From Fimbriimonadaceae bacterium (GTDB lineage Bacteria > Armatimonadota > UBA10988): a stretch of DNA of 44,754 nucleotides. Positions within the stretch are counted from its first letter, which is position 1; each line of letters opens with the position of its first letter. Where the stretch lies: contig JADZEX010000054.1 of assembly GCA_020850355.1 (NCBI GenBank), positions 1 to 44,754 on the forward strand, written 5' to 3'. The position numbers and the translations under genes were made by a program. Below, one piece after another: positions 3,099-36,679 of the stretch. The notes below the pieces were generated by a model. The model saw nothing but the letters and a program-made list of their open reading frames with translations, had not been told where the DNA came from and made no database searches.

Positions 3099-3351
3099 GG
3101 CCCCTCCAGCCGGCCAATCCTGTACGCCGCGCTGAGCTTAGCCGGGGAGGATGGCGAGTCCTGCACAACGGGGCGCAACGACCTCTCAGTTTCGAAGCGA
3201 GAAAGGACCTGCGCGTCAGACAGCGTACTGGACCGCTCGGTCGAGTTCCGGAAGCTCCGTGCAGGAGCTTGCCAGGTTCCGACCAAAACGAGGTCCGAGT
3301 CCGTTTGGCCACCGTGCAGCGCGGTTGGGTGGGCTCAGAACAAGGGTGGGC

Positions 3352-4845: not shown

Positions 4846-6182
4846 CTCGCGCCCTGCTAACCGGCCTGCTGCTCGGCCTGGTGCCCTGCTGGGGCCAGCC
4901 CGGGAGTGAGCTGCCGCTGTCGCTCCAGGCGGCGCGGGAGCTGCGCACGTACTACGGCAGCGAAGCTTGTAGCCACGCGGTGCGGTGGGTGTTTGCACTC
5001 GACATCTCTGGCAGTATGGCCGGGCCTCTGCTGGACGGCGGCAAAGCGGCGCTGGCTGATCTGTTGAACACGGTGGTGGCGCGAGGCGACGAGGTCTTGC
5101 TGCTGCCGTTCGACGACCAGGTCGATCCGCCCTTGCCGGACGCCCCGCGGCGAGCGTTCCTGGTGGGCGACGCGACAGGCTCTGAGGAGGCCGTGCCACG
5201 GGGCTCCGTGTCGGCCGCCCTGACAGGCCTGACCCCACGGCCCGGGCGACGTGGCACAGCCTTGACCGGTGCCCTCCAGGCCACGCTGCGGCGGGTCGCT
5301 GCGGCGGCGCCGCGTTACGGCATCGGGGTGATCCTGACCGACCGGATGGATGACGACGAGCAGGCGCGGCTGGCCCGGTCGCAGCTCGCTGTGCCGGGTG
5401 TCCGACGCACGGCGGCGGGCCTGCTCTACGTCCATCTGCCCCTCGAATCGGTCAATCGCGACGGCCGGCAGGTGCGGCTGGAGCTCTTTCATTGCGGCGC
5501 CGCGAAGCTGCCAGCGGGGGCGCTGGCGCTGGCCGGCAACCGCTCACTACCGCAGCCGGAGGCGCCCACGCAGCCGCGCAGCCGGACCGTCGTCGAACCG
5601 CACCACGGGTGGCTGCTGGGCGGCGTGGTTCTGCTGCTGGCCGGGCTGTCGGCCACCTGCTGGGGCTGGCGCGAACGCCAGCAGAAGGTCCACCTGCACT
5701 GGGAAGGCAGCGTCGCTGACGGCACGCCTGCGGTGTTGCTGTCGCCCGGCGAGTCGGAGCCGTTGACCGCGCGGGCCGGCATCGGCCAGCCAGGCGGCTA
5801 CCTCATGCACTTCGACAGCGCAGACGGGCGGGTCGATGAAGCTCTGGGCAGCCTGGCGGTCACGCAGGATGGCGTGACCCTCGCCACCACGGAGGAGTAC
5901 CGCCTGCGGCAATCCGGCCGGGTCACCGCGGTGCGCGAGGTTGAGGTGCGGCGCGGCCAGGGACCGGTGGAGCTGGAGTTCCTGCGGGCCAACGGTCACG
6001 ACCCACTGCGGCGCCAGCCGCTGACGCTGGAGATCGGCGCCGCCGGGGCGAACGCCGGTCGGTGGTTGCTGCTGGGCGGCGGGCTGGTCTGCGGTGGGCT
6101 GCTGCTGCTGCTGACGGTGGGTCGGACTGAGCGACACCAGGAGTGGATTCCCGCGCCGCCGCCAGAGTCCTTCTGCGGCTGA
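4842..6182 (+). CDS. Membrane-anchored vWA-domain protein
   Basis: 446 residues. The N-terminus (MTRALLTGLLLGLVPCWG) looks like a signal peptide. A von Willebrand A domain spans about 45-230, with the metal-ion (MIDAS) motif DISGS at 54-58, a Thr in RRGTALTGAL around 146 and ILTDRMDDD supplying the later Asp. Two hydrophobic segments follow (about 256-276 and 407-427). They enclose a beta-rich domain of about 130 residues, and a short proline-rich tail ends the protein. The vWA domain should face the periplasm or exterior and bind a partner in a metal-dependent way. It overlaps the upstream gene by 4 nt and is 27 nt from the next. vWA proteins are among the known neighbours of bacterial tubulin-like proteins of this type (Makarova and Koonin 2010), which fits the context. 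The domain call is strong; the ligand is unknown. Confidence 0.85.
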   Translation: MTRALLTGLLLGLVPCWGQPGSELPLSLQAARELRTYYGSEACSHAVRWVFALDISGSMAGPLLDGGKAALADLLNTVVARGDEVLLLPFDDQVDPPLPDAPRRAFLVGDATGSEEAVPRGSVSAALTGLTPRPGRRGTALTGALQATLRRVAAAAPRYGIGVILTDRMDDDEQARLARSQLAVPGVRRTAAGLLYVHLPLESVNRDGRQVRLELFHCGAAKLPAGALALAGNRSLPQPEAPTQPRSRTVVEPHHGWLLGGVVLLLAGLSATCWGWRERQQKVHLHWEGSVADGTPAVLLSPGESEPLTARAGIGQPGGYLMHFDSADGRVDEALGSLAVTQDGVTLATTEEYRLRQSGRVTAVREVEVRRGQGPVELEFLRANGHDPLRRQPLTLEIGAAGANAGRWLLLGGGLVCGGLLLLLTVGRTERHQEWIPAPPPESFCG

Positions 6183-6209
6183 CACAGCGGGGTGGATGAG
6201 GAGGGCTGG

Positions 6210-6527
6210 ATGGCAGATCCGGTTGGGTTCTGGCTGGCACTGGCGGTGGTGGCCGTCGGCCTCTTGGCCGGCCATACGATCCTGTTCTGGCTGCTTCGCG
6301 ACGTGGTGCAGCTCGATGCGCACCGCGCTATCCGGGGCGGTCACACGCTCGGCGGCCCGCTCGGCTGGTGCTTCGCGGCGAGCCTGCTGCCGCGTACCCG
6401 CGATGTTGTGGCGTTCTGGACCGGCGTGCCGCCACTGCCCGGCGGCGTCGTCCTGGTGCTCTTACTGGGTTGGCTGTTGATCGTCTGGTTCTACCGGCGT
6501 CCGGCGGCCACACCGGTCGTCGACTGA
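6210..6527 (+). CDS. Small membrane protein of the tubulin-like operon
   Basis: 105 residues from the ATG at 6210. GAGGAGGGC sits 3-11 bases upstream and is a near-perfect ribosome site, so this start is preferred over an in-frame GTG at 6192. Two clear transmembrane helices are seen: residues about 7-27 (FWLALAVVAVGLLAGHTILF) and about 78-97 (GGVVLVLLLGWLLIVWFYRR). A polar, Arg/Gly-containing loop of about 50 residues joins them. No family is recognised. The gene lies 14 nt before the tubulin-like gene and is presumably translated with it. A membrane tether or assembly factor for the tubulin-like protein or for the channel pair is plausible but not shown. Confidence 0.75.
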   Translation: MADPVGFWLALAVVAVGLLAGHTILFWLLRDVVQLDAHRAIRGGHTLGGPLGWCFAASLLPRTRDVVAFWTGVPPLPGGVVLVLLLGWLLIVWFYRRPAATPVVD

Positions 6528-6541
6528 AAGGGGGGTGCCTG

Positions 6542-9500
6542 GTGGATATCGCTGTCAATCCGACTCTCTTCATCGCGCTTGGCGGCACCGGCCGCAACGT
6601 GCTGGAGCGGTACCGTCGCCGACTCCGCCAGCGGGTCGGCACCGATCAGATGCCGTTCCTGGAGTACCTGTACGTTGACACCGACCAGGACAACGGCCAG
6701 ACCAGCGGCGACGATGGCGTGGGCATCGGTCTGCCACCGACCACTGGCCAGCAAGTCGCCGATCTGCGGGGCTCCTTGGCGGAGCAGTTGCGCCTCGGCG
6801 AGTGGGTCCACGATGGCGTGTTGGAGCTGCTCAAGAAGGGCACCGTGAACGGCGCCGGGGGGAACCGCCAACTGGGCCACATCAGCTTCCTGGTCAGCCC
6901 TGAACTGCGCCGCCTGCAGGATCGGATTCAGACCAAGGTGGCCAGCCTGCGCACGGCCCGCTCGGGCGGCCTGCCCCGCGAGTTGACCAACGTGTACCCA
7001 GCCTACCTGCGGGTGGCGGTGCAGGGCGTCGGTCCCCAGATCAGCATCATCGTGGTCGCTTCGGCGGGCGGGGGCACGGGCAGCTCGACCTTCATTGACA
7101 TGGGCTACTTCGTGCGTCGAGCGTTGATGCTGCAGAGCGTGGACGAGGAGCTCTATCGGACGATCGCGATCGTCAGCGTCGCCTCCACCGCGCTGCCGGA
7201 CAGCGATCGTCGGCGGACCAACTCCGCCGGCGTGCTGACCGAGCTCAACCACTACCTCAGCCGGCACGGCAACTACAGCGCCGCCTACCCGCTGGCGTTC
7301 CCGGCGGCCCCGCTGGACCGCAGCCGGATGAACCGCGAGAACCCGCTGTACCATCTGCCGGAGCGCCCGCCGTACGACGCGCATTACCTGGTGCAGCCAG
7401 CTACCTACCATAGCGGGCACCTGCACCCGGCAGACCCCGCTGTCAGCATGAACCGACAGGAACAGAAGATCGCGGAGATGCTGCTCGCCGAGACCGTCTA
7501 CGCCGCCCGCGACCGCGGGATGGCCACCCGCCTGGAGGGCGGCACGCCGAAGAAGGCGCCGGCCGTGGAACGGGTCGAACGAAGCGAGCTGAAGTCCCGC
7601 AGCATCGACCTGGCAGCCACGGTGGACCTGGCCCGCTATGATGAGGTTTACCCGACCAGCTACCTGACCTTCGGCGTGGCGGTCCGCGAATTCCCGCCCG
7701 CGATGCACCACATTCTGGCCTACGGCCAGGCGGTACGGACGCTGGCCCGCGATTGGACCACGCTGCCGGAGGCCGCCGACGGCGACGACCTCAAGCAGCC
7801 TGCGGCGAACGACCTGCTGGCCGGCTGGGCCCGGCGGCTCGGACTCGCAGCCGACGAGGGGCTGCTGGCCGATAGCGGCTACGCGGTGCGGGCGGACGAC
7901 GACCCGCTGCTGCAGGCGCTGCTCGAGCCGACTGCGCGCGGCTTCGACCCGCGGCGGGCGCTGGATGAGGCCGCCACGCCGCAGCGCGCTGGTTACGGCT
8001 CCGCGAGCGAGGCCCAGAACTGGTTGGCGTCGGTCGGCAACCAGTGCGCTGCCTTGTGCCGCCCGGTGCAGGCTCGCGAGCCAGAGCCCTACGCCGAGGG
8101 GAGCGTCTTCGCGGCCGTGCGCAACCAGCGCGACCGACTGGCTGGATGGGACGACCGGGGCCTGCCGGGGGCGCTGGCGATGGCGTTGCTGGGGCTCGCG
8201 TTCGACCCCAACGCTGGCCCGGCAGCGGCCCTTCGAGTCGTCAGCCGACTCACCGCTCGCCTGGCCGCCGAGGTGGCTCATGTGCAGCACTGCCGTGAGA
8301 AGGTCCCGTCGCCACCTCCGGTCAGCGGGCTGCAGACCAGTGCCCGGCCGACGCAGCGGGACTGGTTGCTCTGGCCGCACCGGCTTGCCGCTCCGGGCGT
8401 CGACCCTGGGCCCTGGCGGTGTCAGGCCTGGGAAGTAGCCAACAGCGCGCTGCTGAAGCTGGTCCTGGAGGCTCGGTTGGCGGTGCTGCAGGCGGTCGAA
8501 ACGGCCTGCACCCAGATGCAACCCCGGCTGCAGTACTTGACCTCGTGGTTCCAGGCCTGGGCGGCGGCAGCGCCACGCGACGATGCCCCAGAGCACGTCT
8601 TGACCGATGAGGAGCAGAGGTCCGTACTGCGTCGTGACGACCTGGTGCGGAGGTTTGCCGACCTTGGTCCGGTGCGGCCGCAGCTTGGCCAGCAACTGCG
8701 TGAGACCCAACTGTACCAGGACCTCACCAGGCTGGTGCGACAGGGGCTGCCCGATACCGTGGACGGCCAACCAACGCTCCTGGCGCGGGACGTACCGCGG
8801 CAGCATGATGGTCGGACCGTGGATCTGGCTCCCCTGCAGGAGGTCGAGCGCAGTCTGTTCGAGAGCATCGGCAGCCGGGCGGATGGACCCTATGACCAGC
8901 AGGTCGATGAGCTGCTGCTTCACAGTGGACTGACCCCAGAGAAACTGGCTGCTCAACTGCACGAAGAGTCGTCGCCACTGTTGCAGTTCGATCACAACAA
9001 CCCACTCTTCAAGAACACGACAATGTTCCCAGCGCAGATCGAGCAGTGGTTCTACCTGGCGGATCCGGGCTGCCGGCAGTACGGCCACCTCGCGAGCGAG
9101 CTGGAGCGGCAGGCAATCTCGTCCTACCGCTTCACCGATCCCTCCCCGGCGGCCTTCCGGCTACCACAACAGGCCGATGGCATTGGCACGATGCTCGCTA
9201 TCGAGCGCCACCGCACCGGCATCCCGACGGCGCTGATCAACGGCTATGACACCAACGCCGTGCTGCGGTTGATCGATCAGGCCGCATCCCCGCCGGTCAC
9301 TGATCAACGGATCCGCCCGCCGGTCGGCCCCCTGCTGTTGCGCGAGGCCTGCCGGATGATCCTCGGCGGCCTGGTCCTTGGCAACGAGGTGATCTTCACG
9401 CTCGGCAAGCAGAGCGGCTTTCGGTTCACCTGGGCGGAGCGTCAGGCAAGCGGCTTCACCAAAGAGAACCCAGTCGATCTGCCCGCGGACCTGGTGGCGG

Positions 9501-9967
9501 CGGCGACCAGGCTGGCGCAGTCGGATCGCGACCGGCGCGAATTGGATCTGAAGATCCGCGGTCATCTGTTGAACCATGCCGATGCCGCCACGGTCCGGCT
9601 GCACGAGGTCTATGCACGGGCGAATCAGCTCCACAACAGCCGCCCGGCCGGCAGCGAGCAGCGGCAGTTCGATGTCTGGGAAGAGGGCGGACGACCTTCG
9701 GGCGTGTGCATCGAAAACGTGAGCTTCGAGGAAGCCATGACGTTTCTGATGAGCTTCGTGCAGCATTACCGCCTGCCCGTGATGCCCAGCGAGGAAGGCA
9801 ATATACGCTTCTACAGGCAGGGCGAGGACCTGCCAGCCGGCGGTCGGGCTCAGGTTGACGGATGGCACTGCAAGTTCGACGGCGAGCGGATTGGCAACGA
9901 TCATCCCGCCCCCGGCACGTACTGCCCGCGCTGCCTGGGCAGCAACTCGGGCGCCACGGCGCGTTGA
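6542..9967 (+). CDS. Giant tubulin/FtsZ-like GTPase (Tubulin_2-like) with C-terminal zinc ribbon
   Basis: 1141 residues from GTG 6542, which follows a strong G-rich ribosome site (AAAGGGGGG). The N-terminal third has the tubulin-superfamily nucleotide motifs: a T1-type glycine loop ALGGTGRNVL at 12-21 and the diagnostic signature GGGTGS at 176-181, inside VVASAGGGTGSSTFIDMG. The domain fits the Tubulin_2 / FtsZ-like families with large C-terminal extensions. About 700 residues of mostly helical sequence follow. The protein ends in a probable zinc ribbon (Cys1110; CPRC at 1128-1131). It would bind GTP and could polymerise at the membrane with its operon partners. At three times the length of FtsZ it is not the cell-division protein. 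An in-frame extension to 6368 would overlap the preceding gene and is rejected. Recognition of the superfamily is confident; function is inferred from neighbours. Confidence 0.9.
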   Translation: MDIAVNPTLFIALGGTGRNVLERYRRRLRQRVGTDQMPFLEYLYVDTDQDNGQTSGDDGVGIGLPPTTGQQVADLRGSLAEQLRLGEWVHDGVLELLKKGTVNGAGGNRQLGHISFLVSPELRRLQDRIQTKVASLRTARSGGLPRELTNVYPAYLRVAVQGVGPQISIIVVASAGGGTGSSTFIDMGYFVRRALMLQSVDEELYRTIAIVSVASTALPDSDRRRTNSAGVLTELNHYLSRHGNYSAAYPLAFPAAPLDRSRMNRENPLYHLPERPPYDAHYLVQPATYHSGHLHPADPAVSMNRQEQKIAEMLLAETVYAARDRGMATRLEGGTPKKAPAVERVERSELKSRSIDLAATVDLARYDEVYPTSYLTFGVAVREFPPAMHHILAYGQAVRTLARDWTTLPEAADGDDLKQPAANDLLAGWARRLGLAADEGLLADSGYAVRADDDPLLQALLEPTARGFDPRRALDEAATPQRAGYGSASEAQNWLASVGNQCAALCRPVQAREPEPYAEGSVFAAVRNQRDRLAGWDDRGLPGALAMALLGLAFDPNAGPAAALRVVSRLTARLAAEVAHVQHCREKVPSPPPVSGLQTSARPTQRDWLLWPHRLAAPGVDPGPWRCQAWEVANSALLKLVLEARLAVLQAVETACTQMQPRLQYLTSWFQAWAAAAPRDDAPEHVLTDEEQRSVLRRDDLVRRFADLGPVRPQLGQQLRETQLYQDLTRLVRQGLPDTVDGQPTLLARDVPRQHDGRTVDLAPLQEVERSLFESIGSRADGPYDQQVDELLLHSGLTPEKLAAQLHEESSPLLQFDHNNPLFKNTTMFPAQIEQWFYLADPGCRQYGHLASELERQAISSYRFTDPSPAAFRLPQQADGIGTMLAIERHRTGIPTALINGYDTNAVLRLIDQAASPPVTDQRIRPPVGPLLLREACRMILGGLVLGNEVIFTLGKQSGFRFTWAERQASGFTKENPVDLPADLVAAATRLAQSDRDRRELDLKIRGHLLNHADAATVRLHEVYARANQLHNSRPAGSEQRQFDVWEEGGRPSGVCIENVSFEEAMTFLMSFVQHYRLPVMPSEEGNIRFYRQGEDLPAGGRAQVDGWHCKFDGERIGNDHPAPGTYCPRCLGSNSGATAR

Positions 9968-9977
9968 GGAGAGCCTG

Positions 9978-10829
9978 ATGCCTTACTTCTACAGCGAGGA
10001 GAACAGCGTCCTGGGCACTCGGCCGCGGCGGGTGGCAGTAGTACCAGCGGCACGACCCGCGACCGGTGTGCTCGTGCTGCTGGTGCTGCTGGCCCTGCTG
10101 CTGGGAGGCGCCCTGCTGGCCTGGCCGGCCGGGGACGTGGCACGCAGGGCCGAGGCAGCCGTGGCGCAGATCGCCGTGGTCGGCGCGAGTGGCAAGCAAT
10201 ACCTGCGCTCGGGATGGGTCTATGACCCGCAAGGCTTCATCCTGATGACCCGCGACGCGGCATTCCCGGAGGGCCTCGAGCGACCACCGCAGTCGCGGAC
10301 GTTGACCATCGGCGGCGACGGGAACCTGGTCGACTTGCCGGCACGGCTGGTCGACTACGGCAGACCCGAGCCAGGCCACGGCAACGATACCGTCCAACTG
10401 CGCCGCAACTGGGCCCTGCTCCAAATAGCGCTGGAGCGCGCAACCCTGACCGCGCTGCCTGCCGACACCAATCCGGAAGCGGTGCAGCCGGGCCGCCCGC
10501 TGTGGGTCTGCGGGGCCTCCAGCGGCAGCAACAGCACTGGTACGCAGTCCAAACTGGCCCGGCTCTATGCGCGGGTCGTGACGGTGCGGCGCGAGCCCGG
10601 CCTCGGCGCGGTGCGGGCCGATCACGGCGTGGCCACGCCGGCCGAGATGCTGGGCGGCCCGGTGCTGGACGCCTGGTCTGGCCGAGTGATCGGCCTCAGC
10701 GCTGAGCCACCGGGAGAGGCACCCAGGCCCGGCGCTGGAGGCCAGGCAGAGCAAGCCAGCTCGGTCCTGCCCGTGCACCTGCTCGACAACGTGTTGAAGC
10801 AGCAGCGCGGCGGGGTGGCGGCGCAGTAA
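9978..10829 (+). CDS. Membrane-anchored trypsin-fold protein lacking catalytic residues (pseudoprotease)
   Basis: 283 residues. A cytoplasmic Arg-containing stretch precedes a transmembrane helix at about 29-49, which is followed by a domain resembling HtrA-type serine proteases. The family's 'GSGFVYDPDGYILTNAHVV' block appears as RSGWVYDPQGFILMTRDAAF (78-96), so the catalytic His is not present. The 'DLALLKI' block appears as NWALLQI (144-150), losing the Asp. The 'GNSGGPLLD' block appears as EMLGGPVLDAWSGRVIGL, with Leu225 where Ser should be. The fold is therefore recognisable but the triad is gone, suggesting a binding or sensor domain outside the membrane. No PDZ domain follows. ATG 9978 comes 10 nt after the tubulin-like stop with GAGGAGAG upstream. 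The alignment to the protease blocks is by eye. Confidence 0.75.
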   Translation: MPYFYSEENSVLGTRPRRVAVVPAARPATGVLVLLVLLALLLGGALLAWPAGDVARRAEAAVAQIAVVGASGKQYLRSGWVYDPQGFILMTRDAAFPEGLERPPQSRTLTIGGDGNLVDLPARLVDYGRPEPGHGNDTVQLRRNWALLQIALERATLTALPADTNPEAVQPGRPLWVCGASSGSNSTGTQSKLARLYARVVTVRREPGLGAVRADHGVATPAEMLGGPVLDAWSGRVIGLSAEPPGEAPRPGAGGQAEQASSVLPVHLLDNVLKQQRGGVAAQ

Positions 10830-10847
10830 GAAGGTTGAGGGTTACGG

Positions 10848-12761
10848 ATGGCAGTCGCGTGGACCGTGGTTGTTCTGGCCGGTGGGATCGAGCTGTGGCT
10901 GTGGTGGCTGGGGCTGCAGCGCTGCGGGGCGCTGCGCGAGCTGGCCAAGGGCTTGGAGTCCGGCGCCGCTGCCGCCATCAAGGGGGTGCCGCCGGAGAAA
11001 GCAGGCGCCACGCAGGTCGATCGGGGGCGCCATCTCGCGCACGACCGGTTCAGTGACCTGCGGCTGCTGACCGACAAGCCGCACGGCCTGGTCCTGGTCA
11101 GCGAAACTCTCGACCCGATCCACGAGCCGCTCGCCGAGCAGGTGGTGGCGATCCCACAGCAGATCGTCCTGGTCTCGCTGCTGGCGACGGTCAGCGGTCT
11201 CGGGCTCTGCGTCTGGCAGTTGGCCGGATCGCTGGGTGCGCAAGGCGATGCAGCGACTTCCCAGTTCCGGAGCATGGCGCTGGCCTTCGGGCCGACCGGG
11301 TTGGGTGTGCTCGTCAGTCTGTTGCTCAACAACGCCGCCCGCGGTGCGTTGGACGCCTGGGAGATGGCCTGCCGCGAGGCCGACGGATCGTTCACACGTT
11401 ACCTCGCCGAGAATGCCCAGACGGCGTCAATCGACGAAGCGGCCGTGGCCCTCGGCGACGCGGCCGCCAAGATGGGCGACCACGCCACCACCTTCAGCGA
11501 CTCCGTGAACACGCTGCATCAGGAGGTCCGCAAGCTGCGGGCCGGCGAGATCAGCGATGGTCTGCACAACGCGACCGACCTGTTCCGTCAGACGCTTGAC
11601 GCGGGCGCCACCAAGTTGGAGGCGGCGCTCGGCGGCCTGGCACGCTTCGGTCAGGACATTGGGCAAGTCGGTCCGGCCGTCGACCGGCTGGCTGAAATGG
11701 CGGCCAGTCTTGAGGGCACGGCTGACACCATCCGCGGTGGCTTCGAAGGGGTGGTCTCCCAGTCCGCGCTTCTTGCAGAGGCGCTGCAGCCGGCCAACCG
11801 CGCCGCGCAGCAGATGGCCGATGGCATGGCCGGCCTGCAGGCCGCCAGCGGCGACGTCAGCAATGCCGTCAGCGGCTTGCGCGAGGTCTTCAGCCAGGAT
11901 GTCGTGGCGCAGTACGAACGCAACTCCAAGGCCCTCGAGACGACCTCTGCCCGGTTTGAGGCACTGGTCGCCCAAACTAGTGCAAACAGCGAGCGTCTGG
12001 AGATGGTTTTCGACCAGGTGTCCACGCAGGTTGCAGCGCTGGAAGCCATGAACAGCGGGCAGCGCGCGATGGTGGAGCGGGTCGCTACGCAGCAGCATCA
12101 GACGGCTCAGGACCTGGCCGATTCCCTGGCGGCAACCCTGACCGCAGCGCCACCGGACCTGGCCAACCTGGCAGCCTCGGCCGCAGAGCTTGCCAGCGTC
12201 GCCGCATCGCTCCGGCAGGACCAGGAAGCGCAACGGCACGAACTCGAGGGAGCGCTCCAGAGCGTCTCGGCAGCGCTGGTCAGGCTCGACCAGACGCACC
12301 ACCAGTTGGTTGCGCAACAGGCTGCGGAGAGGACTCAGATCAGCCAGGCGCTGGAGAGCCTGGCGGCGTCTTCGCTTCAGTTCACGCACCTGGCGACGAC
12401 CTTGGCGGACAGCCAACGTGTCGCGCGAGATGACCTGACGGTCGCGGTTGGGGCGATGCAGGCAGCCTTGGCGCAGACGCGGGCCACCGCGGAGCGAGCT
12501 CCTGACTGGTCGCCCGAGGCCTTGGCCACCGCTCTGCAGGGCGCGCTGAAGGGCCTGGCAGGTTTGCCGGAGACCGTGCAACGGGTCTCATCGCGGCTGG
12601 ACCGCGTCGAGCGACGACTGGCTGAGACGCCCAACCCCGTCACCGCCGACCAACTCTCAGAGGCGATCACCGCGGGGGTACGGGCGGCGGCTGTCCCGAG
12701 TCAGCCAGCAGCCGGAGCCGAACGTCGGCCGTGGTGGCGCCGCTGGTTCGGCCGGCGCTGA
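10848..12761 (+). CDS. MotA/TolQ/ExbB-like channel protein with long coiled-coil tail (ZorA-like)
   Basis: 637 residues. There are three hydrophobic segments: TM1 at about 1-22, TM2 at about 105-127 (IVLVSLLATVSGLGLCVWQL) and TM3 at about 142-161 (MALAFGPTGLGVLVSLLLNN). This topology and the Gly/Thr-rich TM2-TM3 pattern fit the MotA/TolQ/ExbB proton-channel family. After TM3 comes a tail of about 450 residues rich in Ala, Gln, Leu, Glu and Ser with coiled-coil character, ending in a basic Trp-containing segment (WWRRWFGRR). Such a long cytoplasmic tail on a MotA-like core is typical of Zorya ZorA and unlike flagellar MotA. The next gene encodes its expected partner, a MotB-like protein with the membrane aspartate. 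Together they should form an ion-driven rotary unit. Assignment is by topology and neighbour rather than a single diagnostic motif. Confidence 0.8.
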   Translation: MAVAWTVVVLAGGIELWLWWLGLQRCGALRELAKGLESGAAAAIKGVPPEKAGATQVDRGRHLAHDRFSDLRLLTDKPHGLVLVSETLDPIHEPLAEQVVAIPQQIVLVSLLATVSGLGLCVWQLAGSLGAQGDAATSQFRSMALAFGPTGLGVLVSLLLNNAARGALDAWEMACREADGSFTRYLAENAQTASIDEAAVALGDAAAKMGDHATTFSDSVNTLHQEVRKLRAGEISDGLHNATDLFRQTLDAGATKLEAALGGLARFGQDIGQVGPAVDRLAEMAASLEGTADTIRGGFEGVVSQSALLAEALQPANRAAQQMADGMAGLQAASGDVSNAVSGLREVFSQDVVAQYERNSKALETTSARFEALVAQTSANSERLEMVFDQVSTQVAALEAMNSGQRAMVERVATQQHQTAQDLADSLAATLTAAPPDLANLAASAAELASVAASLRQDQEAQRHELEGALQSVSAALVRLDQTHHQLVAQQAAERTQISQALESLAASSLQFTHLATTLADSQRVARDDLTVAVGAMQAALAQTRATAERAPDWSPEALATALQGALKGLAGLPETVQRVSSRLDRVERRLAETPNPVTADQLSEAITAGVRAAAVPSQPAAGAERRPWWRRWFGRR

Positions 12762-12781
12762 GCGCCAGGAGGTAGCTGCAG

Positions 12782-13612
12782 ATGCCGACCGGCACTCACC
12801 GCCGCCATGCCAGTACACGGCAGAGCGTCAACCCCTTCGTGGTGTTGAGCGACATCACCGTGTCGGTCATCCTGTGCTTGACGGTCGCCCTGGCCTACCG
12901 CACGGTGCAGTACCAGAAGCTGCAGGCCGCCCATCAGGTACTCCAGGACAAGATTCGCGCTTGCCCGACCTGCACGCCGACGCCGGTCGTGGCAGCAGCA
13001 CCAGCGGCTCAGAGTAGCCCTGCCGACGATGCAGGTCTGACCGCGCAGGAGCGCGAAGCCCGCAAGTGGATCCAGGACACTCGCCAGAGCATTGAGGAGC
13101 GGTTGCGCGGTGCGGCGCAGTACCGCATGGTGTTCGGCACAGACAGCCTGGTCGTGCGGTTCCAGAACGACGTGCTGTTCTCGCTTGGACGAGCCGAACT
13201 ACAGGCGCGCGGCAAGGTCGTGCTGCGGAAGTTCGCGGACTCCATCCGGCCGGTGGTCGAGACCGCTGATCTGAACACCGGCAAGGGCCGAGTGTTGGAG
13301 ATCCAAATCCAGGGCCACACCGACCTCAGCGGCAGCTACGCCGACAACTGGGCGCTGAGCAGGTCGCGCGCCGAGTCGGTGCGCGACTTCTGGATCCAGA
13401 ACAAGCTGCTACCGGCTCACCTGCTGTCGGTTGCGGCGTACAACTACCACCGACCGATCCGTGACTACCCGACGAAGAACCCGCAGGACCGGCGCGCGGA
13501 GGTTGCCGAGAACCGTCGGGTGGACGTCCGCATCATCTTCCACCGGGCTGACAAGGACGAGCAGGATCCGCTGACCATTCTGCCTTTGGGCAACGATGGT
13601 CGGCGCCACTAG
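12782..13612 (+). CDS. MotB/OmpA-like membrane protein (ZorB-like)
   Basis: 276 residues, with AGGAGGT in front of ATG 12782. One transmembrane helix (about 18-39) carries an Asp at position 24 (NPFVVLSDITVSVILCL), the position of the proton-binding Asp in MotB, ExbD and ZorB. A linker with a CPTC pair (61-64) and a helical stretch (about 85-110) lead to an OmpA/MotB peptidoglycan-binding domain at about 115-265. That domain contains GHTD at 178-181, LSRSRAESVRDFW and the C-terminal ENRRVDVRI. The domain would anchor the channel to the cell wall while the helix lines the ion path of the preceding MotA-like protein. The order (MotA-like then MotB-like, 20 nt apart) is that of MotAB and ZorAB. 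Unlike a simple OmpA lipoprotein it has no lipobox. Confident. Confidence 0.88.
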   Translation: MPTGTHRRHASTRQSVNPFVVLSDITVSVILCLTVALAYRTVQYQKLQAAHQVLQDKIRACPTCTPTPVVAAAPAAQSSPADDAGLTAQEREARKWIQDTRQSIEERLRGAAQYRMVFGTDSLVVRFQNDVLFSLGRAELQARGKVVLRKFADSIRPVVETADLNTGKGRVLEIQIQGHTDLSGSYADNWALSRSRAESVRDFWIQNKLLPAHLLSVAAYNYHRPIRDYPTKNPQDRRAEVAENRRVDVRIIFHRADKDEQDPLTILPLGNDGRRH

Positions 13613-13620
13613 GAGTGTTC

Positions 13621-14547
13621 GTGCAGACGACAGCCGAACTGGTTCGCGAGCGCGTGGCGCTCCTGCGCGGGGTCCGTTGCGCGGCAGAGGCACAGGAGGC
13701 TCCCGCATCGTCGGCGGCCGCTGCGTGGCGTAACGTCAGCCGCCTGCTGGCCGATCCGTGGGGTCTCGCCGAACATCAGGTGTCCTGGGCGTTGGCCCTC
13801 GCGATGCAGACCGTCCACCAGGACCGCCTCGCGCTGAGCAGCCAGGCCACACCGGCACAGCGGCAGGGCGCGCTCGATGCACGACGATCGATCTGCGCCG
13901 CCGGCGCCGTCCTGGCAGCCCGTCTGCGGCGCCACGCGGCACTGCAGACGGCCGTCGCGGCCGCTGAGCTGGGCCCGGCCGAGGCCGCGCCGCTGCTCGC
14001 CATTGCAGCTCTGGATACCGCGCCATTGCACGACGATGTCCGCCTGGTCCCAGCCGTGCAGCTCCTTCAGGAGCTGCGAAGGCGGCCCACTGCGTCCGGC
14101 TCCCAGCGCCGCGTCAGGCAGCTCTTGGCGACGCTCCCGGCGGATGCCGCTGGCGAGGTGCGCTGGGTGCGGGCGCAGCTGCAACAGGTGTCCTGGTGGC
14201 TACAACTGGTGGCCGGCGCCAGGCCACAGAGTCTTCCAGCAAGCGGGGACCTGCTGGCCGATGACACCTGGCTTGGCTGGCTGGCGGCGGGCCCGCCGCC
14301 AGGGCTGGGCGAACTGGCTGCGGTGGAGCGCCGCGCCACGGCCGTCTGGGATCGGGCGCGCGCCCAGCGCTGGGAACGGTCGGTCGGCGATGCCACGGCC
14401 TGGGCCGTGGCGCAGGAAGCTGGCTGGGCGATCACTCTGCCGGTGGCGGTTTCGCCGCTGCGGAAGCGACGCCCCGCGGTGTTGTCGGTTGGGTTGCCAT
14501 TGGCCGACTCGGCAGCGGAGGCGAGCGATGACGTGTCCTCATTGTGA
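13621..14547 (+). CDS. Unknown helical protein of the tubulin-like operon
   Basis: 308 residues from GTG 13621, placed 5 nt after AGGAG. A GTG at 13615 would overlap this ribosome site and is less likely. The sequence is Ala/Leu/Arg-rich and predicted mainly helical, with amphipathic stretches and several Trp residues in its second half (WLGWLAAG, QVSWWLQLV). It has no transmembrane segment, signal peptide, Cys cluster or nucleotide-binding motif that I recognise. It starts 8 nt after the OmpA-like gene, and its last 20 nt overlap the start of the Hsp70-like gene, so the two are probably translationally coupled. A soluble adaptor between the channel pair and the chaperone module is one possibility; nothing in the sequence proves it. 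Confidence 0.7.
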   Translation: MQTTAELVRERVALLRGVRCAAEAQEAPASSAAAAWRNVSRLLADPWGLAEHQVSWALALAMQTVHQDRLALSSQATPAQRQGALDARRSICAAGAVLAARLRRHAALQTAVAAAELGPAEAAPLLAIAALDTAPLHDDVRLVPAVQLLQELRRRPTASGSQRRVRQLLATLPADAAGEVRWVRAQLQQVSWWLQLVAGARPQSLPASGDLLADDTWLGWLAAGPPPGLGELAAVERRATAVWDRARAQRWERSVGDATAWAVAQEAGWAITLPVAVSPLRKRRPAVLSVGLPLADSAAEASDDVSSL

Positions 14548-17218
14548 TAAGGAAGTACAGGGCCGGGCAACGGCCGACGCGGTAGCCGACGGCGGCGTAG
14601 TCCTAACTATCCCGAGGGCCTTCTGCGCACACTGCGGCTGGCCGCTGGCCGTCCTCGACGGCGACTCCGCGTCCGTTGCGCTGAATCCAGAGCTGCTCCG
14701 ACTGGAACCCGGCGCCGTGGGCGAGGTGGTGCTGCTGTTGACTAACCGTGGACCCCGAGCCGCTGGCGCGCTCTACTACAATGTGGAGTTGCCCGACGAC
14801 ACCGTGCTGCCCGGGCTCGCGCGAGACGATCTCAGGGGCCGAGTTGAGGTGGGGGCGGTTCGCGAAGTCAGACTGACGGTCGATGCCAGCGCCTGTCAGC
14901 GGCATGGCCAACGTGCCCGGCTGCTGCTCCAGACGCTCACCCGCCGGCCCAGTGCCAAACGCATGGCGCGCGACCTGCCTGCACACGAATGCTGGGCTGA
15001 GCAAGATCTCGCGATCCGCGTCGAGGTTGTCCAAGCCGGGCCGCTGGTAACCAACGCTGACGCCCTGATTTTCGGTCATGCGGTCGACCAGGCCAAGCTC
15101 GAGCTCGCCAACTGGGGCGATATCGACCTTCCGGTCGAACTGCACTGCGAAGGCCCGTTCGAGGTGCTGCACGCCGCCTTCGCCTGGGCCCCGCATGGCC
15201 GGGTGACCCTCAAGGCGGCCCGCGGCGGCGAGGACCGCTGCGGGCCCGGCTGCGTGGTGGTCACGGTCCGACCAACGACCGATCGCCCGGCTCGGGGCTG
15301 CCTGTATCTCCGCGCCAACGGCTTGCCGGAACAGCGCGTGGTTCTCGAACGTCAGCCCGCGCCGAGTGCCATCCAGCCGGCTCGAGCCTTCACGGTCGGC
15401 ATCGACTTCGGGACCTCCAAGACTGCCGTTGCCTGGGTCGACAACCGGGTCAACCAGCCCGAGCCGCAGATGCTGGAGTGGAATCGCCCGTCGGGCCTCG
15501 ATCCACGCTACCTGCCGTCCGCGGTGTTCGATGATGGCAGCGGCATCCTGGCCTTCGGCGACGCTGCCCTCGAAGAGGCGGCTGTCGTTTCGGATGTCGG
15601 GGTCCGCAGCCACAACAGCGGCTACTGGCAAGACGAGCGCGGCCAGCAGCTATACGTTGGTATGAAGCTGTTTCTGCATGCGGCCAACCCGCTGGGCCTG
15701 GCGGCCGGCGAGCTGGACCGGGTTGTCGAGGAGTACTTCCACGAGATCTTCCGCGCCCTGCAAGAACGCTCTCCCGTCGACCTGAGCGATTGCACCTTCG
15801 TGCTCTCGGTGCCGGTGCTACGCAACGAGGCCGAGCGCGCCGAGCAGGAGCGCCGCACCATCGCGGCGGCCGCCGCCGCGGGTGACTTCTTCGACCTCGA
15901 GCACCACCAGTTCCAAGTGCAGTTGGAGCCCCTCTGCGCGGCGGTGGACATCCTCGATTGCGAGGCCCGGCGCGCTGCGGCGGATCCCGCGGGCGGCCAG
16001 ACCCTGCACGACCACGACTGGCTGTGCGTCTTTGACGTGGGGGCCGGCACCACCGACATCTGTTTCATCCAAGCACGGCGTCGAGGGACCGCCTGGCAGT
16101 TCCGGGAGACACCGCCCATCGGCTATGTGTGGGGTGGCGACCAGCTCGACACAACCCTCTACCAGGAGCTGCTGCGTCAGTGGACCAGCGCTGACCACGG
16201 GTCTTCAGGGCCCGACATTGGCCCAGCCGGCGACCTGCCTGACGGAGCCCGCAGGGCGAGTGGAGAGCCGGAAGCCGTTTCGCTCTTCGAGGTGCTCAGT
16301 GATCCGGCGCACCGTGACATACCGCTCCGGTTCCGTGGCGCCAAACAAGACATCACGGTGAGCCGGCTGCTGGGTCAGGTGGTTCGGTTCAAGGAGCTAC
16401 ACCTCAGCGAGACCAGCCCGCCAGCGCCGGCAGACGTAACCACCCGTACACCGGTGGAGAACCTCCACCAGGACTGCGCCGGGACATTCAGCGGCCGGCC
16501 ATTGAACGTTCAGGACCTGATCCGACGTCAACGGAGCGAGTTCCTAGAGATGCAAGACGGCGGTGCCCTGGGCTTCGCCCACCAGCCCAAGCTGCGGGTG
16601 AAGTTCGAACGGCACACCCGCGAACATGGCATTCGGCAGCTCGATCATGTCTGCGCCGTCGGCGGCACCACTTTGGCGAATGGCTTCCGCGAAGCCCTGG
16701 CGCTGTTGAGGTTGAGCGAAGAGCGGCTCCTGCAGGTGGACCCCGACTTGCGGCGGCTGCACGTGGCCCGCGGCGCCGCTTTGTTCCCGCGGCTGCGCGT
16801 GGAGCTGCCGTTGCCTGAGACCGTGACCCTGCGCGCAAGCGACTGGCGGCCAGGTGCCGAGCCACGCGTGCGGGCCGAGGTTGCGGTGGACTCCGGCACC
16901 CCGCCCTCGCAGACTCAGCAATACGCCCTACCGCCCCAGGCGCTGACGCTGGAGCGGGACCGCTACCTGCTGTTCGAAGTGCTGCTGGGCGAGCGCGTCG
17001 TGCGGCGGGTGCCAGTCGGTTGGTTCCAGGCGGCCGACGCGCTCAGCCGCGCGGGGCTGCCGCGCTCGCCGGAACTCCAGATTCGGGCCTCGCTAGCCTA
17101 TGTCCGCTGGCCGCAGCCTTCGATCCGACTGGAGGCCAGGTGGCTCTTGGCCGCGGACCAGCAGCCGGTGGCGATTGCGGCGGACGAAGCGAGTGAGGTT
17201 GTCATTCCCCAGCGCTGA
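14528..17218 (+). CDS. Hsp70-like ATPase with N-terminal zinc ribbon and beta-sandwich region
   Basis: 896 residues from ATG 14528. It opens with a zinc ribbon: CPHC at 3-6 and CAHC at 33-36. About 240 residues of beta-rich, Ig-like sequence follow (EVVLLLTNRGPRAAGALYYN and similar strands). The actin-fold Hsp70 ATPase domain starts near 288. Its phosphate-1 loop is GIDFGTSKTAVAW (Asp at 293), its phosphate-2 loop is FDVGAGTTDICF (Asp near 503), and its adenosine loop is CAVGGTTLANGF (near 711). The C-terminal part of about 160 residues is not a standard DnaK substrate domain. This is a divergent Hsp70 dedicated to the operon rather than housekeeping DnaK. The two genes after it carry GrpE-like domains, which would be its nucleotide exchange factors. 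ATPase identification is firm; the client is unknown. Confidence 0.88.
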   Translation: MTCPHCDKEVQGRATADAVADGGVVLTIPRAFCAHCGWPLAVLDGDSASVALNPELLRLEPGAVGEVVLLLTNRGPRAAGALYYNVELPDDTVLPGLARDDLRGRVEVGAVREVRLTVDASACQRHGQRARLLLQTLTRRPSAKRMARDLPAHECWAEQDLAIRVEVVQAGPLVTNADALIFGHAVDQAKLELANWGDIDLPVELHCEGPFEVLHAAFAWAPHGRVTLKAARGGEDRCGPGCVVVTVRPTTDRPARGCLYLRANGLPEQRVVLERQPAPSAIQPARAFTVGIDFGTSKTAVAWVDNRVNQPEPQMLEWNRPSGLDPRYLPSAVFDDGSGILAFGDAALEEAAVVSDVGVRSHNSGYWQDERGQQLYVGMKLFLHAANPLGLAAGELDRVVEEYFHEIFRALQERSPVDLSDCTFVLSVPVLRNEAERAEQERRTIAAAAAAGDFFDLEHHQFQVQLEPLCAAVDILDCEARRAAADPAGGQTLHDHDWLCVFDVGAGTTDICFIQARRRGTAWQFRETPPIGYVWGGDQLDTTLYQELLRQWTSADHGSSGPDIGPAGDLPDGARRASGEPEAVSLFEVLSDPAHRDIPLRFRGAKQDITVSRLLGQVVRFKELHLSETSPPAPADVTTRTPVENLHQDCAGTFSGRPLNVQDLIRRQRSEFLEMQDGGALGFAHQPKLRVKFERHTREHGIRQLDHVCAVGGTTLANGFREALALLRLSEERLLQVDPDLRRLHVARGAALFPRLRVELPLPETVTLRASDWRPGAEPRVRAEVAVDSGTPPSQTQQYALPPQALTLERDRYLLFEVLLGERVVRRVPVGWFQAADALSRAGLPRSPELQIRASLAYVRWPQPSIRLEARWLLAADQQPVAIAADEASEVVIPQR

Positions 17219-17227
17219 GGAGTTGCG

Positions 17228-18247
17228 ATGTTCTTCAAGAGGCTGCTCGGACGGCCGCCATCCGCCACGCTGCCGGAGGCGCCCGATGACGATCCGCAGG
17301 CAGTAGCCGGTGGCACGCCGGTCGACGTGACGGCACCGGATTCCGGGCCGGCTGAGGAGGCCAGCCGGCAGGCCGCGGCGCTGGAGGACCTCTTGCGACG
17401 GCTCCACCGCGAGCTCTACCGTGCCGCCAAGGGCCAGCCATTGGGGCGAGACCTGCCACTCGCCAGGTTGTGCGAGTCGCTCGACCTCTTCTGCCACCAA
17501 CTCCACGCCGGGGCCTACCAACTCCAACGTGTGGGACCGGCCGCAGACAGCGCGGCGCCCGAGTCGGATGCACCCAACTTCGCCGCGGAGTCGGCCGACG
17601 TGGGGTGCGCGCAAGAGGGCCCCGCCCCGGCGCTGGTCGCTGCTCCAGCGGCCGTCGAGACGGCGCCAGCGGTCGCGGAACCAACCGACGACGGCGCGCC
17701 CGGCGGCGAGACACACCAGGACGAACCACCTTGGCAGCGGCTGCTACGGCAGATGGAGTCAGGCGAGCCCAGGTCCGGACTCGACTTTCTCGTGGCGATG
17801 CTTAAGGACCTTGAGGCGGTGCCGATAGCAGTCATGAGCGCGTTGGAGTCTGGTGACCAGGGCCAGCGGCTGCGCGAGCTTCGCCACCGGCTTGACCGAG
17901 CGCTGCACGAGCGGCTTGACCTGGCGCTGGTTGAGTCCGCATTAGGCGCCGACGAGGCCCAGGTTCTGGTGGTCGAGGTCGGCCAACGTCGGACGCAGGC
18001 CCTGGCTAACTTGCGTGCAGCGGGCGTGGAACGGATCGACCCGACGCAAGGGAGCCCGTTCCACCCCGGCGAGGTGGTGCCGAAGCCGGGTCTGGCGGTG
18101 CGGCCGACTCGACGCGCTGACTGGCACGGACGGGTCGCCGAGGTTTGTCCCGGCGATGCCGGCTACCGGCTGGCGGGGCGGGTCATCTGCCCAGCATTGG
18201 CGCGGCAATATGAGTACACTGGCGACCGCACAACTGACTCACCCTGA
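17228..18247 (+). CDS. GrpE-like protein 1, partner of the Hsp70-like ATPase
   Basis: 339 residues, with GGAG just upstream of ATG 17228. Two helical regions are seen (about 45-100 and 170-260), separated by an acidic/Ala/Pro-rich linker. The C-terminal 75 residues resemble the GrpE beta-domain: AGVERIDPTQGSPFHPGEVV, then RVAEVCPGDAGYRLAGRVIC and PALARQ. This follows the GrpE pattern 'GVERI...GxPFDP...V...GYxLxGRVLRPA'. An insertion of about 15 residues (KPGLAVRPTRRADWHG) lies inside the domain. GrpE proteins release ADP from Hsp70, so this is the expected partner of the preceding gene. The long N-terminal half is unlike standard GrpE. It shares the C-terminal module with the next gene, and the two genes overlap by 38 nt. 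The relation to GrpE is by motif inspection and moderately confident. Confidence 0.7.
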   Translation: MFFKRLLGRPPSATLPEAPDDDPQAVAGGTPVDVTAPDSGPAEEASRQAAALEDLLRRLHRELYRAAKGQPLGRDLPLARLCESLDLFCHQLHAGAYQLQRVGPAADSAAPESDAPNFAAESADVGCAQEGPAPALVAAPAAVETAPAVAEPTDDGAPGGETHQDEPPWQRLLRQMESGEPRSGLDFLVAMLKDLEAVPIAVMSALESGDQGQRLRELRHRLDRALHERLDLALVESALGADEAQVLVVEVGQRRTQALANLRAAGVERIDPTQGSPFHPGEVVPKPGLAVRPTRRADWHGRVAEVCPGDAGYRLAGRVICPALARQYEYTGDRTTDSP

Positions 18248-19052
18248 CCCCAGCAGCGCGCTGGACGAGCACCTGTGCACCGTTCTCCGGCAACTGGCTG
18301 CGCAATCGCGCCTCCCCGGCAGTTGCCGAACCGCCCTGGAAGGCGTCTTTCGAGCCCTGCCTGGTGCCCGACAGCAGGCCTGGCGGGAGTTGCTGCACCA
18401 GGACGACTTCGCCATCTGGCTGCGCGCCTTCACGCCGGGTGAACGGCTCGCTACCGAGTTCCGCCGCGGCCTGCTGCAACGGCTGGCGACGGTCGCCCGG
18501 CCGCCGCAGGCCACCCCAGTCGCATTGGCCCGGTCTGCCGACGTGCCGGCAGTGCTAGCCCGGCTGGCGGGCGTTTCCAACCCGGACGCCAACCTCTACG
18601 GACTCCTCGCCGCTGCCAACTGCCTGCCGCAGCTACCGGCGCAGCTCGCCGAGGCGCACAAGCGCGGCCAGTTGGCAGAGTGGGTGCGCAGCCATCGCGA
18701 CCGCCTGGACCGCGCTCTTTACACTCCATTTCGGGCTGTTCAGTTGGCAGACGAACTAGCCGCGCTGCTCACTACGAGCGAAGCCGAGGCGCTGGCCACG
18801 TGGCTCTGGGACCACCAGGCCGCCGGCCGCCGGGCTCTCGGAGCGCTCGGCCTGGAGCGAGTCGACCCGACCCCGGGCAGCCCCTTCGAGCCCGGCGAGG
18901 TTGTACCCAAAGCCGGTGCGGCACCTCGGCCAACCACCCGCCTCGACTGGCACGACCGGGTCGCCGAGGTGAGCCCGGGCGATGGCGGCTACCGTCTGGC
19001 CGGCCGCATGGTCTGCCCAGCGATGGCGCGGCGGTATGCGGCCACCGTTTGA
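18210..19052 (+). CDS. GrpE-like protein 2, tandem paralogue in the C-terminal domain
   Basis: 280 residues from ATG 18210, inside the end of the preceding gene. The N-terminal 200 residues are helical and show no obvious similarity to the first GrpE-like protein. The last 75 residues repeat its C-terminal module almost position by position: LGLERVDPTPGSPFEPGEVV, RVAEVSPGDGGYRLAGRMVC and PAMARRY, with the same inserted segment (KAGAAPRPTTRLDWHD). The two genes thus share one GrpE-like head on different helical bodies. This may allow two alternative or heteromeric exchange factors for the Hsp70-like protein. It is the last gene of the operon; a short GC hairpin follows about 55 nt after its stop. 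Identity as a coding gene is strong, the biochemical role is inferred. Confidence 0.7.
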   Translation: MSTLATAQLTHPDPSSALDEHLCTVLRQLAAQSRLPGSCRTALEGVFRALPGARQQAWRELLHQDDFAIWLRAFTPGERLATEFRRGLLQRLATVARPPQATPVALARSADVPAVLARLAGVSNPDANLYGLLAAANCLPQLPAQLAEAHKRGQLAEWVRSHRDRLDRALYTPFRAVQLADELAALLTTSEAEALATWLWDHQAAGRRALGALGLERVDPTPGSPFEPGEVVPKAGAAPRPTTRLDWHDRVAEVSPGDGGYRLAGRMVCPAMARRYAATV

Positions 19053-19409: not shown

Positions 19410-20417
19410 ATGCGCCGAAGCGATCCTTTGCTGCAGCAGATTGCGACCGCTGGGCGGCTCGGTTGGCGAGCGCGCCGGCGGCTGGGGGCCGGGCCCGACG
19501 AGGCCTTGGTCGACGCGCTGCTGGCGCGTCTGCAGCGGGAGCCGGCGGGGGCGCGGCGGGGGCCGCGTGACACCGCGCTGGCGTGGTTGCAGGAGTACCT
19601 CTGGTGGTACGGCCGGCAGGCCTTCCGGTCCGCGACGCGCGCCGCGGTGCTGGCCAGTGAGTTGGCTCGCGAGGGGCTGCCGGCCGGGGCCGCGAGCAGC
19701 TCGACGGCCCGCCTGCCGCACCTGCGGGGCCTCCGGCTGCGGCGGCTCGAGGAGCTGCTGGCGCCGGGCGCTGGCGAGGTGGTGCCGCAACTGGTCAGCC
19801 TGCTGCGCGGCCCGGCCGGTGGCGGGGGGACGACCCTCACCCCGCTGGCCGCCCGGACCGGTGATCCGTGGCGGGACTGGATCTACACCGGCCCCAAGAT
19901 CGTGGCCTTGCGGCTGCTCTCGCCCGAAGTCCTGGCCAACCGCGTGCCGCTGCTGGAGGAGCTGCTCCGCAACGGCGACTCCTGGACCGCCCTCGCCGCC
20001 GGGGTGGCGCTGCACCAGGTGCAGGGCGCGGCGGCCGCGCCGCTGGTGGTGACGGAATGCCTCCGTCGCAGCGCCCCGGGCAGCGCCGCAGGCGGGCCGT
20101 ACCTGCGCGCGCTGGCGGCGCTGGGCGCCGATCTGGTGCCGCCAGCGGTGAGCTGGCTGGCCGACTCCGACGAGACCCGCGGCGCGCAGGCGGTGGCGCT
20201 GCTGTGGCAGCTCGGCCACCCAGCGGTGCCGGCCACGGCGGCCTGCTACGAGGCCTGTCCAGGCCCCCCACGGCAGCGCGCCGCGCAGGTCCTGGCGGCG
20301 CTCGACCCGGCCTGGCTGCGGCGCTTGCAGACCGCCCCCGACCCCGCCGAGCGCGGCCTCTCGCTGGCCCGCGACAGCGCCGACCCGGCGCTGGGCTTGA
20401 GCCGCAGCGAGCCGTGA
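19410..20417 (+). CDS. HEAT-like repeat protein 1 with C-terminal double GLS tag
   Basis: 335 residues, Leu/Ala/Arg-rich, with repeated helical pairs typical of HEAT/armadillo-like solenoids (VALLWQLGHPAVPATAACYE and similar). The N-terminal block (GWRARRRLG...ALVDALLARL) and the central block (GPKIVALRLLSPEVLANR) recur in the proteins at 20457-21461 and 22689-23669, making a three-member family. The C-terminus carries RGLSLARDSADPALGLSR, matched at identical spacing in both paralogues. No catalytic motif, signal peptide or membrane helix is seen. Solenoids of this kind usually bind proteins. The gene starts directly after a strong promoter with no ribosome site, so leaderless translation is likely. 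The functional partner is unknown. Confidence 0.78.
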   Translation: MRRSDPLLQQIATAGRLGWRARRRLGAGPDEALVDALLARLQREPAGARRGPRDTALAWLQEYLWWYGRQAFRSATRAAVLASELAREGLPAGAASSSTARLPHLRGLRLRRLEELLAPGAGEVVPQLVSLLRGPAGGGGTTLTPLAARTGDPWRDWIYTGPKIVALRLLSPEVLANRVPLLEELLRNGDSWTALAAGVALHQVQGAAAAPLVVTECLRRSAPGSAAGGPYLRALAALGADLVPPAVSWLADSDETRGAQAVALLWQLGHPAVPATAACYEACPGPPRQRAAQVLAALDPAWLRRLQTAPDPAERGLSLARDSADPALGLSRSEP

Positions 20418-20421
20418 ACCC

Positions 20422-20451
20422 TTGCCAGGTGCCCGCCGCGCCGACTACCCT
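20422..20451 (+). promoter_or_regulatory. Promoter of second HEAT-like gene, leaderless type
   Basis: TTGCCA at 20422-20427, an 18-nt spacer, then TACCCT at 20446-20451, with ATG 5 nt later at 20457. It matches the promoter of the preceding paralogue in layout, so the two tandem genes are transcribed separately and both probably without a leader. Confidence 0.7.
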
Positions 20452-20456
20452 GGGGT

Positions 20457-30837: not shown

Positions 30838-30866
30838 AAGGTAGCCTAGAACGGCAGTCGGGTCAA
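30838..30866 (-). promoter_or_regulatory. Promoter of accB-purC-apgM-tilS
   Basis: Minus strand: TTGACC (30866-30861), a 17-nt spacer, then TACCTT (30843-30838). The -35 box overlaps the last bases of rdrB. Confidence 0.75.
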
Positions 30867-36624: not shown

Positions 36625-36650
36625 CCCATCACCCTCCTTGGCGCTTGGGC

Positions 36651-36679
36651 AAGGTAGCACACGCCGGCCGCGAACTCAA
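36651..36679 (-). promoter_or_regulatory. Promoter of the RADAR operon
   Basis: Minus strand: TTGAGT (36679-36674), a 17-nt spacer, then TACCTT (36656-36651). The rdrA ribosome site and ATG follow 27 nt below. The -10 box is identical to that of accB. Confidence 0.7.

Follow-up and report, generated by a model that had tools for sequence, protein, structure and literature searches.

A predicted motor-type subunit pair recurs beside Tubulin_2 genes in Armatimonadota genomes and on Deinococcus plasmids

Genes of the operon

The window analyzed in this study is a 44,754-nucleotide stretch of DNA from a Fimbriimonadaceae bacterium (contig JADZEX010000054.1). Its ORF listing includes a run of genes, from position 3151 to 19052, that all reside on the same strand and are separated by intergenic gaps of 27 bp or less. 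Within this run are two ORFs, 10848–12761 (+, 637 aa) and 12782–13612 (+, 276 aa), spaced 20 bp apart, whose products are called here the A subunit and the B subunit. Because both recur intact in a genome of the same family (G002; 27% identity for A and 41% for B), they are not chance ORFs.

Upstream of the pair, the run begins with P1 (3151–4845, +), which appears beta-propeller-like by eye, has no Pfam match, and is similar (phmmer, 1.3e-35) to a protein encoded by a paralogous cluster of the same genome. This second cluster (contig C38, 5829–12416 of locus L035) consists of P1, P2, and Tubulin_2 genes without the pair and is located beside sulfatase and glycosidase genes. P1 is followed by a gene for a vWA-domain membrane protein (4842–6182, +) assigned on the basis of a MIDAS-like DISGS motif and a weak VWA_2 match, with a TM helix near residue 256, and then by a gene for a small membrane protein of 105 aa (6210–6527, +) in the position occupied elsewhere by a 3-TM protein preceding Tubulin_2. 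Similar TM proteins of ~440 aa are found at the vWA position in other Tubulin_2 loci, and membrane proteins of the vWA type and small TM proteins are widely encoded upstream at these loci. The Tubulin_2 protein itself, also known as FtsZl1, is 1141 aa in length (6542–9967, +; PF13809, E 2.8e-34). Between it and the A subunit gene is an ORF for a membrane-anchored trypsin-like protein (9978–10829, +; homologue matches Trypsin_2 at 7e-25) whose catalytic triad is apparently lost, as the His, Asp, and Ser positions are not kept, whereas relatives from loci L052 and L053 keep the triad.

Downstream of the pair is P5 (13615–14547, +), a protein with no assigned function; an ORF apparently of the same kind occupies the same place after the B gene in the same-family genome. 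The next gene (14528–17218, +) encodes an ATPase of the Hsp70/actin-like kind that carries zinc-ribbon-like CxxC motifs at its N-terminus. This protein matches an HscA profile (1.3e-4) and its homologue L048 (phmmer, 4e-37), which matches HSP70 (E 4.1e-6), and it has no direct PDB match by sequence. The run ends with two genes for proteins carrying a GrpE-like C-terminal domain. Copy 1 (17228–18247, +) aligns with a GrpE set (hhalign, 81%, E 1.5e-6), copy 2 (18210–19052, +) resembles copy 1, and genes in this position in other loci match Pfam GrpE. Two further genes encode the repeat proteins R1 (19410–20417, +) and R2 (20457–21461, +), which are paralogues (9e-33) whose membership in the operon is uncertain given the 357-bp gap that precedes them. 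Tandem paralogues therefore occur twice in the window (17228–19052 and 19410–21461). On the opposite strand, an RdrB-like adenosine deaminase gene (30866–33313, −; PADLOC RdrB, 4e-20) and a gene for a 1116-aa P-loop protein (33313–36660, −) form a probable RADAR-like defense pair.

The A and B subunits and their relatives

The sequence-only reading of this DNA had described the first product as a MotA-type protein with a coiled-coil tail of about 450 residues, a description that is borne out by TM prediction, periodicity, and the profiles of relatives. Hydropathy analysis places helices near residues 1, 99, and 142, and the three TM helices span about residues 1–20, 101–123, and 142–163. Residues 186–637 (~452 residues; 11403–12758, +) exhibit a helical periodicity peak of 3.56, and this cytoplasmic tail is predicted to form long helices or a coiled coil. 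A low-confidence AlphaFold model from the single sequence (pLDDT 54.5) contains helices of up to 118 residues, including 314–431 and 439–550.

The A subunit of the window alone yields no match to Pfam MotA_ExbB, and its homologue from genome G079 yields one (E 6.6e-4) that is just short of the curated cut-off. By using hhalign, the A subunits of the window and G002 were aligned with the other Tubulin_2-linked A subunits (95%), and these relatives were aligned with TolQ/ExbB (97%, E 5.8e-11), ZorA (94%, E 1e-7), and MotA (40%). When a profile of ten A proteins was compared with the PDB, the top match was ZorA (8VVN, E 1.1e-5), followed by other ZorA proteins, TolQ, and MotA. By transitive homology, through its relatives only, the A subunit is thus classed with the MotA/TolQ/ExbB superfamily, and profile comparison places its family no farther from TolQ/ExbB than from ZorA. 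An alignment of ten Tubulin_2-linked A proteins has two invariant motifs, L..T..GL within TM2 and AF within TM3; the TM2 Thr corresponds to Thr114 in the window.

The second product had been read as a MotB/OmpA-type protein with Asp24 in its sole membrane helix, and both the class and the residue number proved accurate. The B subunit (MotB/ZorB type) carries an OmpA peptidoglycan-binding domain (PF00691, E 6.6e-12) with GHTD, LSxxRA, and NRR motifs, and it matches the PADLOC ZorB1 profile (E 3.2e-24). Its single TM helix includes the sequence NPFVVLSD24. The motif NP[FY]xxxxD, with Asp five residues past [FY], is present in 13 of 13 Tubulin_2-linked B homologues, and Asp24 (codon 12851–12853, +), the predicted ion-binding aspartate, is aligned and invariant across all of them. 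The Asp of GHTD is replaced in the B proteins of G079 and Deinococcus, and the motif is gone in G137, G176, and G231. Therefore, peptidoglycan binding by B may not be general across the relatives. In G231, tandem B paralogues follow a single A subunit (locus L117, 13014–14802), which suggests a heterodimeric B.

The pair had also been called ZorAB-like. This holds for its architecture: like type I and II ZorAB (PDB 8VVN, 8VVI, 8QYK), it combines a MotA-like subunit bearing a long cytoplasmic tail (residues 236–696 in type I, 186–637 in the window) with an OmpA-type B subunit whose only helix carries Asp24. It does not hold for family membership. The ZorB helix motif is FWIS[FY]xD rather than NP[FY]xxxxD, and the window pair is linked to Tubulin_2, lacks ZorC/D/E, and falls in a clade of its own. 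In the A tree, the five ZorA proteins group together with support of 100/99. The Tubulin_2-linked proteins, along with four that are related to them, lie on the other side of a branch that is not firm (81/78). AU tests rejected placement of the window A subunit with ZorA (p 0.003), MotA (p 0.025), or ExbB/TolQ (p 0.0125). In the B tree, Zorya proteins form one clade (95/89); placement of the window B subunit with MotB was rejected (p 0.007) and placement with ZorB was borderline (p 0.052). Note that both trees have long branches, and that the Zorya references are a canonical locus from the same phylum and plasmid copies, with type II and III ZorA outside the sampling of the A tree. Membership of the pair in ZorAB is not supported by these sequence comparisons, with the B placement borderline.

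Searches of plasmids by tblastn gave a similar division. Canonical ZorA retrieved annotated zorA genes (41–50% identity) and no Tubulin_2-linked ones, whereas the G079 A subunit retrieved four loci only, all of them Deinococcus Tubulin_2 operons; the two sets of matches are disjoint. The B subunit as a tblastn query retrieved mostly unrelated OmpA proteins. The absence of Zorya effectors noted in the sequence-only reading was upheld: the EH_Signature domain of ZorC/E is absent from the whole assembly, no PADLOC Zorya effector was matched among the window genes scanned, and ZorC/D/E genes were not found beside any tailed pair scanned. Another genome of the phylum (G208, contig C26; locus L134, 3639–11826) contains a canonical ZorABCD locus resembling Zorya I; such loci are rare in Armatimonadota.

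We also considered a flagellar or Tol/Ton motor. The pair shares the channel superfamily and the MotB-type OmpA domain with TolQR, ExbBD, and flagellar MotAB, but it has a long tail, no flagellar or Ton/Tol partners adjoin it, and B is of the OmpA type rather than the ExbD/TolR type. The trees and the neighboring genes both reject this assignment, and the phylogenetic check proposed in the sequence-only reading thus places the pair outside MotAB and TolQR/ExbBD. Three MotA_ExbB genes are present elsewhere in the genome of the window.

Linkage of the pair to Tubulin_2

Tubulin_2 is encoded by 84 of 291 Armatimonadota genomes. In nine of these, representing five Armatimonadota families (G000, which is the source of the window, and G002, G053, G054, G079, G101, G137, G176, and G231), a tailed pair follows the Tubulin_2 gene on the same strand. 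The same is true of all four Deinococcus plasmid loci recovered; a Deinococcus version of these genes is DEIDE_RS15205–15215 on plasmid 2 of Deinococcus deserti. The trypsin-like gene is the only one between Tubulin_2 and A in the window, and A is directly downstream in the other eight genomes (the G002 gene is split over two contigs) and the four plasmids. Because the Deinococcus search covered plasmids only, the plasmid location is itself uninformative. Most Tubulin_2 loci lack the motor pair, including the paralogous cluster of the same genome.

The query for the genome-wide protein search was the N-terminal domain of A, because full-length A picks up coiled coils by chance (C30). Six of the nine genomes had been identified before the search profile was made, and therefore the remaining pairs provide the fair test of linkage. 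Seven further tailed pairs were found, with three beside Tubulin_2, one at a contig end, and three away from it. Among pairs found without the use of Tubulin_2, including the four Deinococcus loci, 7 of the 10 that could be evaluated are adjacent to Tubulin_2. One of the Tubulin_2-free pairs adjoins an Hsp70-like gene, and one (G195; locus L115, 8361–14072) has vWA and PP2C genes after it.

Tubulin_2 proteins encoded with a pair are all confined to one half of their tree, with support of 100/99. When one Deinococcus locus is kept, evolutionary distances correlate at 0.80 for A and tubulin, 0.82 for B and tubulin, and 0.68 for A and B, although shared descent of the hosts could account for part of this congruence. 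Given the synteny and the congruent distances, Tubulin_2 is likely the partner of the motor.

The sequence-only reading had proposed that the neighbors be checked for whether they are always the tubulin-like and Hsp70-like genes. The tubulin-like gene indeed recurs (nine genomes, four plasmids), but the Hsp70-like gene occurs both with and without the motor pair beside Tubulin_2, and none was recognized in the Deinococcus operons, which instead encode a protein with LRV repeats and a kinase that carries SH3 and beta-helix domains. Therefore, no partner is as constant as the tubulin-like gene, and the Hsp70-like gene is frequent but not fixed.

A proposed machine and its possible roles

Some components of this module have been described. 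Operons of FtsZl1 with vWA and OmpA genes were reported by Makarova and Koonin in 2010 (PMC2875224), and the window resembles them in having Tubulin_2, vWA (by motif and weak profile), and OmpA proteins. It differs in that the OmpA protein is the B subunit of a putative motor and is accompanied by an A subunit, which is unmentioned in the accessible part of that report. Tubulin, HSP70, and vWA conflict systems were described in 2020 (PMC7159879), and these GTPase-centric GAP1-N2 systems share with our loci the themes of tubulin with vWA, HSP70 with GrpE, and kinase/PP2C, but no ion motor is reported there. Among the operon genes scanned we found no Pfam match for a GTPase, a search that could miss a diverged TRAFAC GTPase. 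The Synechocystis cluster sll0445–sll0447 likewise has Tubulin_2 beside an actin-like ATPase; no motor pair was reported for it, and a role in phototaxis was tested there (PMC9880817). Novel 5:2 motors with vWA proteins are already published (PMC12204202). We found no paper joining a MotA-type subunit to Tubulin_2 in the open-access literature (supplementary files aside). The module of motor pair and Tubulin_2 is real and recurring, and as far as could be searched the combination is new.

These observations suggest an undescribed machine that ties the energy of the cell envelope to a tubulin-family protein. We lean toward the view that the pair is a motor that is coupled to Tubulin_2, without commitment to a particular biological role. 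Against this coupling stand the many Tubulin_2 loci that lack the pair, the three tailed pairs away from Tubulin_2, the assignment of A to its superfamily through relatives only, and the decayed OmpA motif of some relatives. In the most likely form of this view, A and B would form an A5B2 ion-driven motor in the inner membrane, with the OmpA domain tethering B to peptidoglycan and Asp24, within a ring of A-subunit threonines, carrying the ion. The five A tails would bundle into a cytoplasmic rod. If the wall were damaged or stretched, or the envelope altered in some other way, B would grip the wall and ion flow would open, and the ring and rod would then rotate or alter their shape. The rod could act on Tubulin_2 by promoting its assembly near the membrane or by loading it there, with help in anchoring from the vWA and small TM proteins, and the Hsp70-like ATPase and GrpE-like exchange factors could regulate or disassemble it. 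Superfamily and domain membership, the conserved Asp and Thr, the helical tail, and the congruent linkage to Tubulin_2 come from the sequences. We infer the stoichiometry, ion flow, gating by the wall, contact between tail and tubulin, and biological role; the model for the mechanism is ZorAB, which requires its tail and its wall-binding domain as well as the Asp (PMC11890865). A bolder reading, that a peptidoglycan-anchored, ion-powered rotary motor mechanically drives or switches the tubulin-superfamily protein through its cytoplasmic tail, is tentative and on present evidence rather doubtful.

Two roles appear about equally likely, and each is a possibility well short of an even chance. The pair might belong to an antiphage or conflict system in which the motor senses envelope damage by phage and Tubulin_2, Hsp70, and vWA proteins take over from ZorCD or ZorE as the effector or signal relay. 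The ZorAB-like architecture and the ZorB1 match agree with this idea, as do the tubulin, HSP70–GrpE, vWA, kinase, and PP2C themes shared with predicted GAP1-N2 conflict systems (PMC7159879), the resemblance of the Deinococcus operon kinase to defense kinases, a McrB-like AAA/EVE gene adjoining one operon, and the RdrB-like gene 9.4 kb downstream in the window. However, housekeeping or carbohydrate genes make up most of the Armatimonadota flanks, the module has no recognized nuclease or toxin-like effector, and the pair lies outside the Zorya clade. Alternatively, the motor might pull or steer FtsZl1 assemblies, as in membrane remodeling or surface movement, and so shape, move, or repair the envelope. 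A membrane-remodeling function was proposed in the 2010 report for FtsZl1 operons that encode vWA and OmpA proteins (PMC2875224), and Synechocystis mutants of sll0445, the Tubulin_2 gene, and of the adjacent actin-like sll0446 are impaired in phototaxis, with the proteins co-fractionating with pilus assembly proteins (PMC9880817). Yet motor genes are not reported for the Synechocystis cluster, and a distribution that is patchy and includes plasmid copies is more in line with an accessory function than with a core one.

It is improbable that the pair works separately from Tubulin_2, as an ExbB/MotA-like unit that is simply carried along in these operons. The three tailed pairs located away from Tubulin_2 and the pairless paralogous cluster would agree with such independence, but gene order and strand are the same in two phyla and the distances are congruent. 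We strongly disfavor a divergent true Zorya whose effectors are lost or located elsewhere. ZorB profile matches speak for it, whereas EH_Signature is absent from the assembly, the AU test separates A from ZorA with B borderline, and the ZorA of the canonical ZorABCD locus in the same phylum finds zorA genes, none linked to Tubulin_2.

A motor coupled to Tubulin_2 would bear on a question that a reviewer of the 2010 paper posed: how does a cytoplasmic tubulin homologue work with periplasmic OmpA proteins (PMC2875224)? A membrane-spanning A subunit with a cytoplasmic tail and a hold on the OmpA protein is a possible answer. The finding points to cooperation between 5:2 motors and proteins of the cytoskeleton, and it opens the function of FtsZl1 to experiments in Deinococcus. 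If the rotary-drive reading is true, energy would pass directly from the envelope to a bacterial homologue of tubulin.
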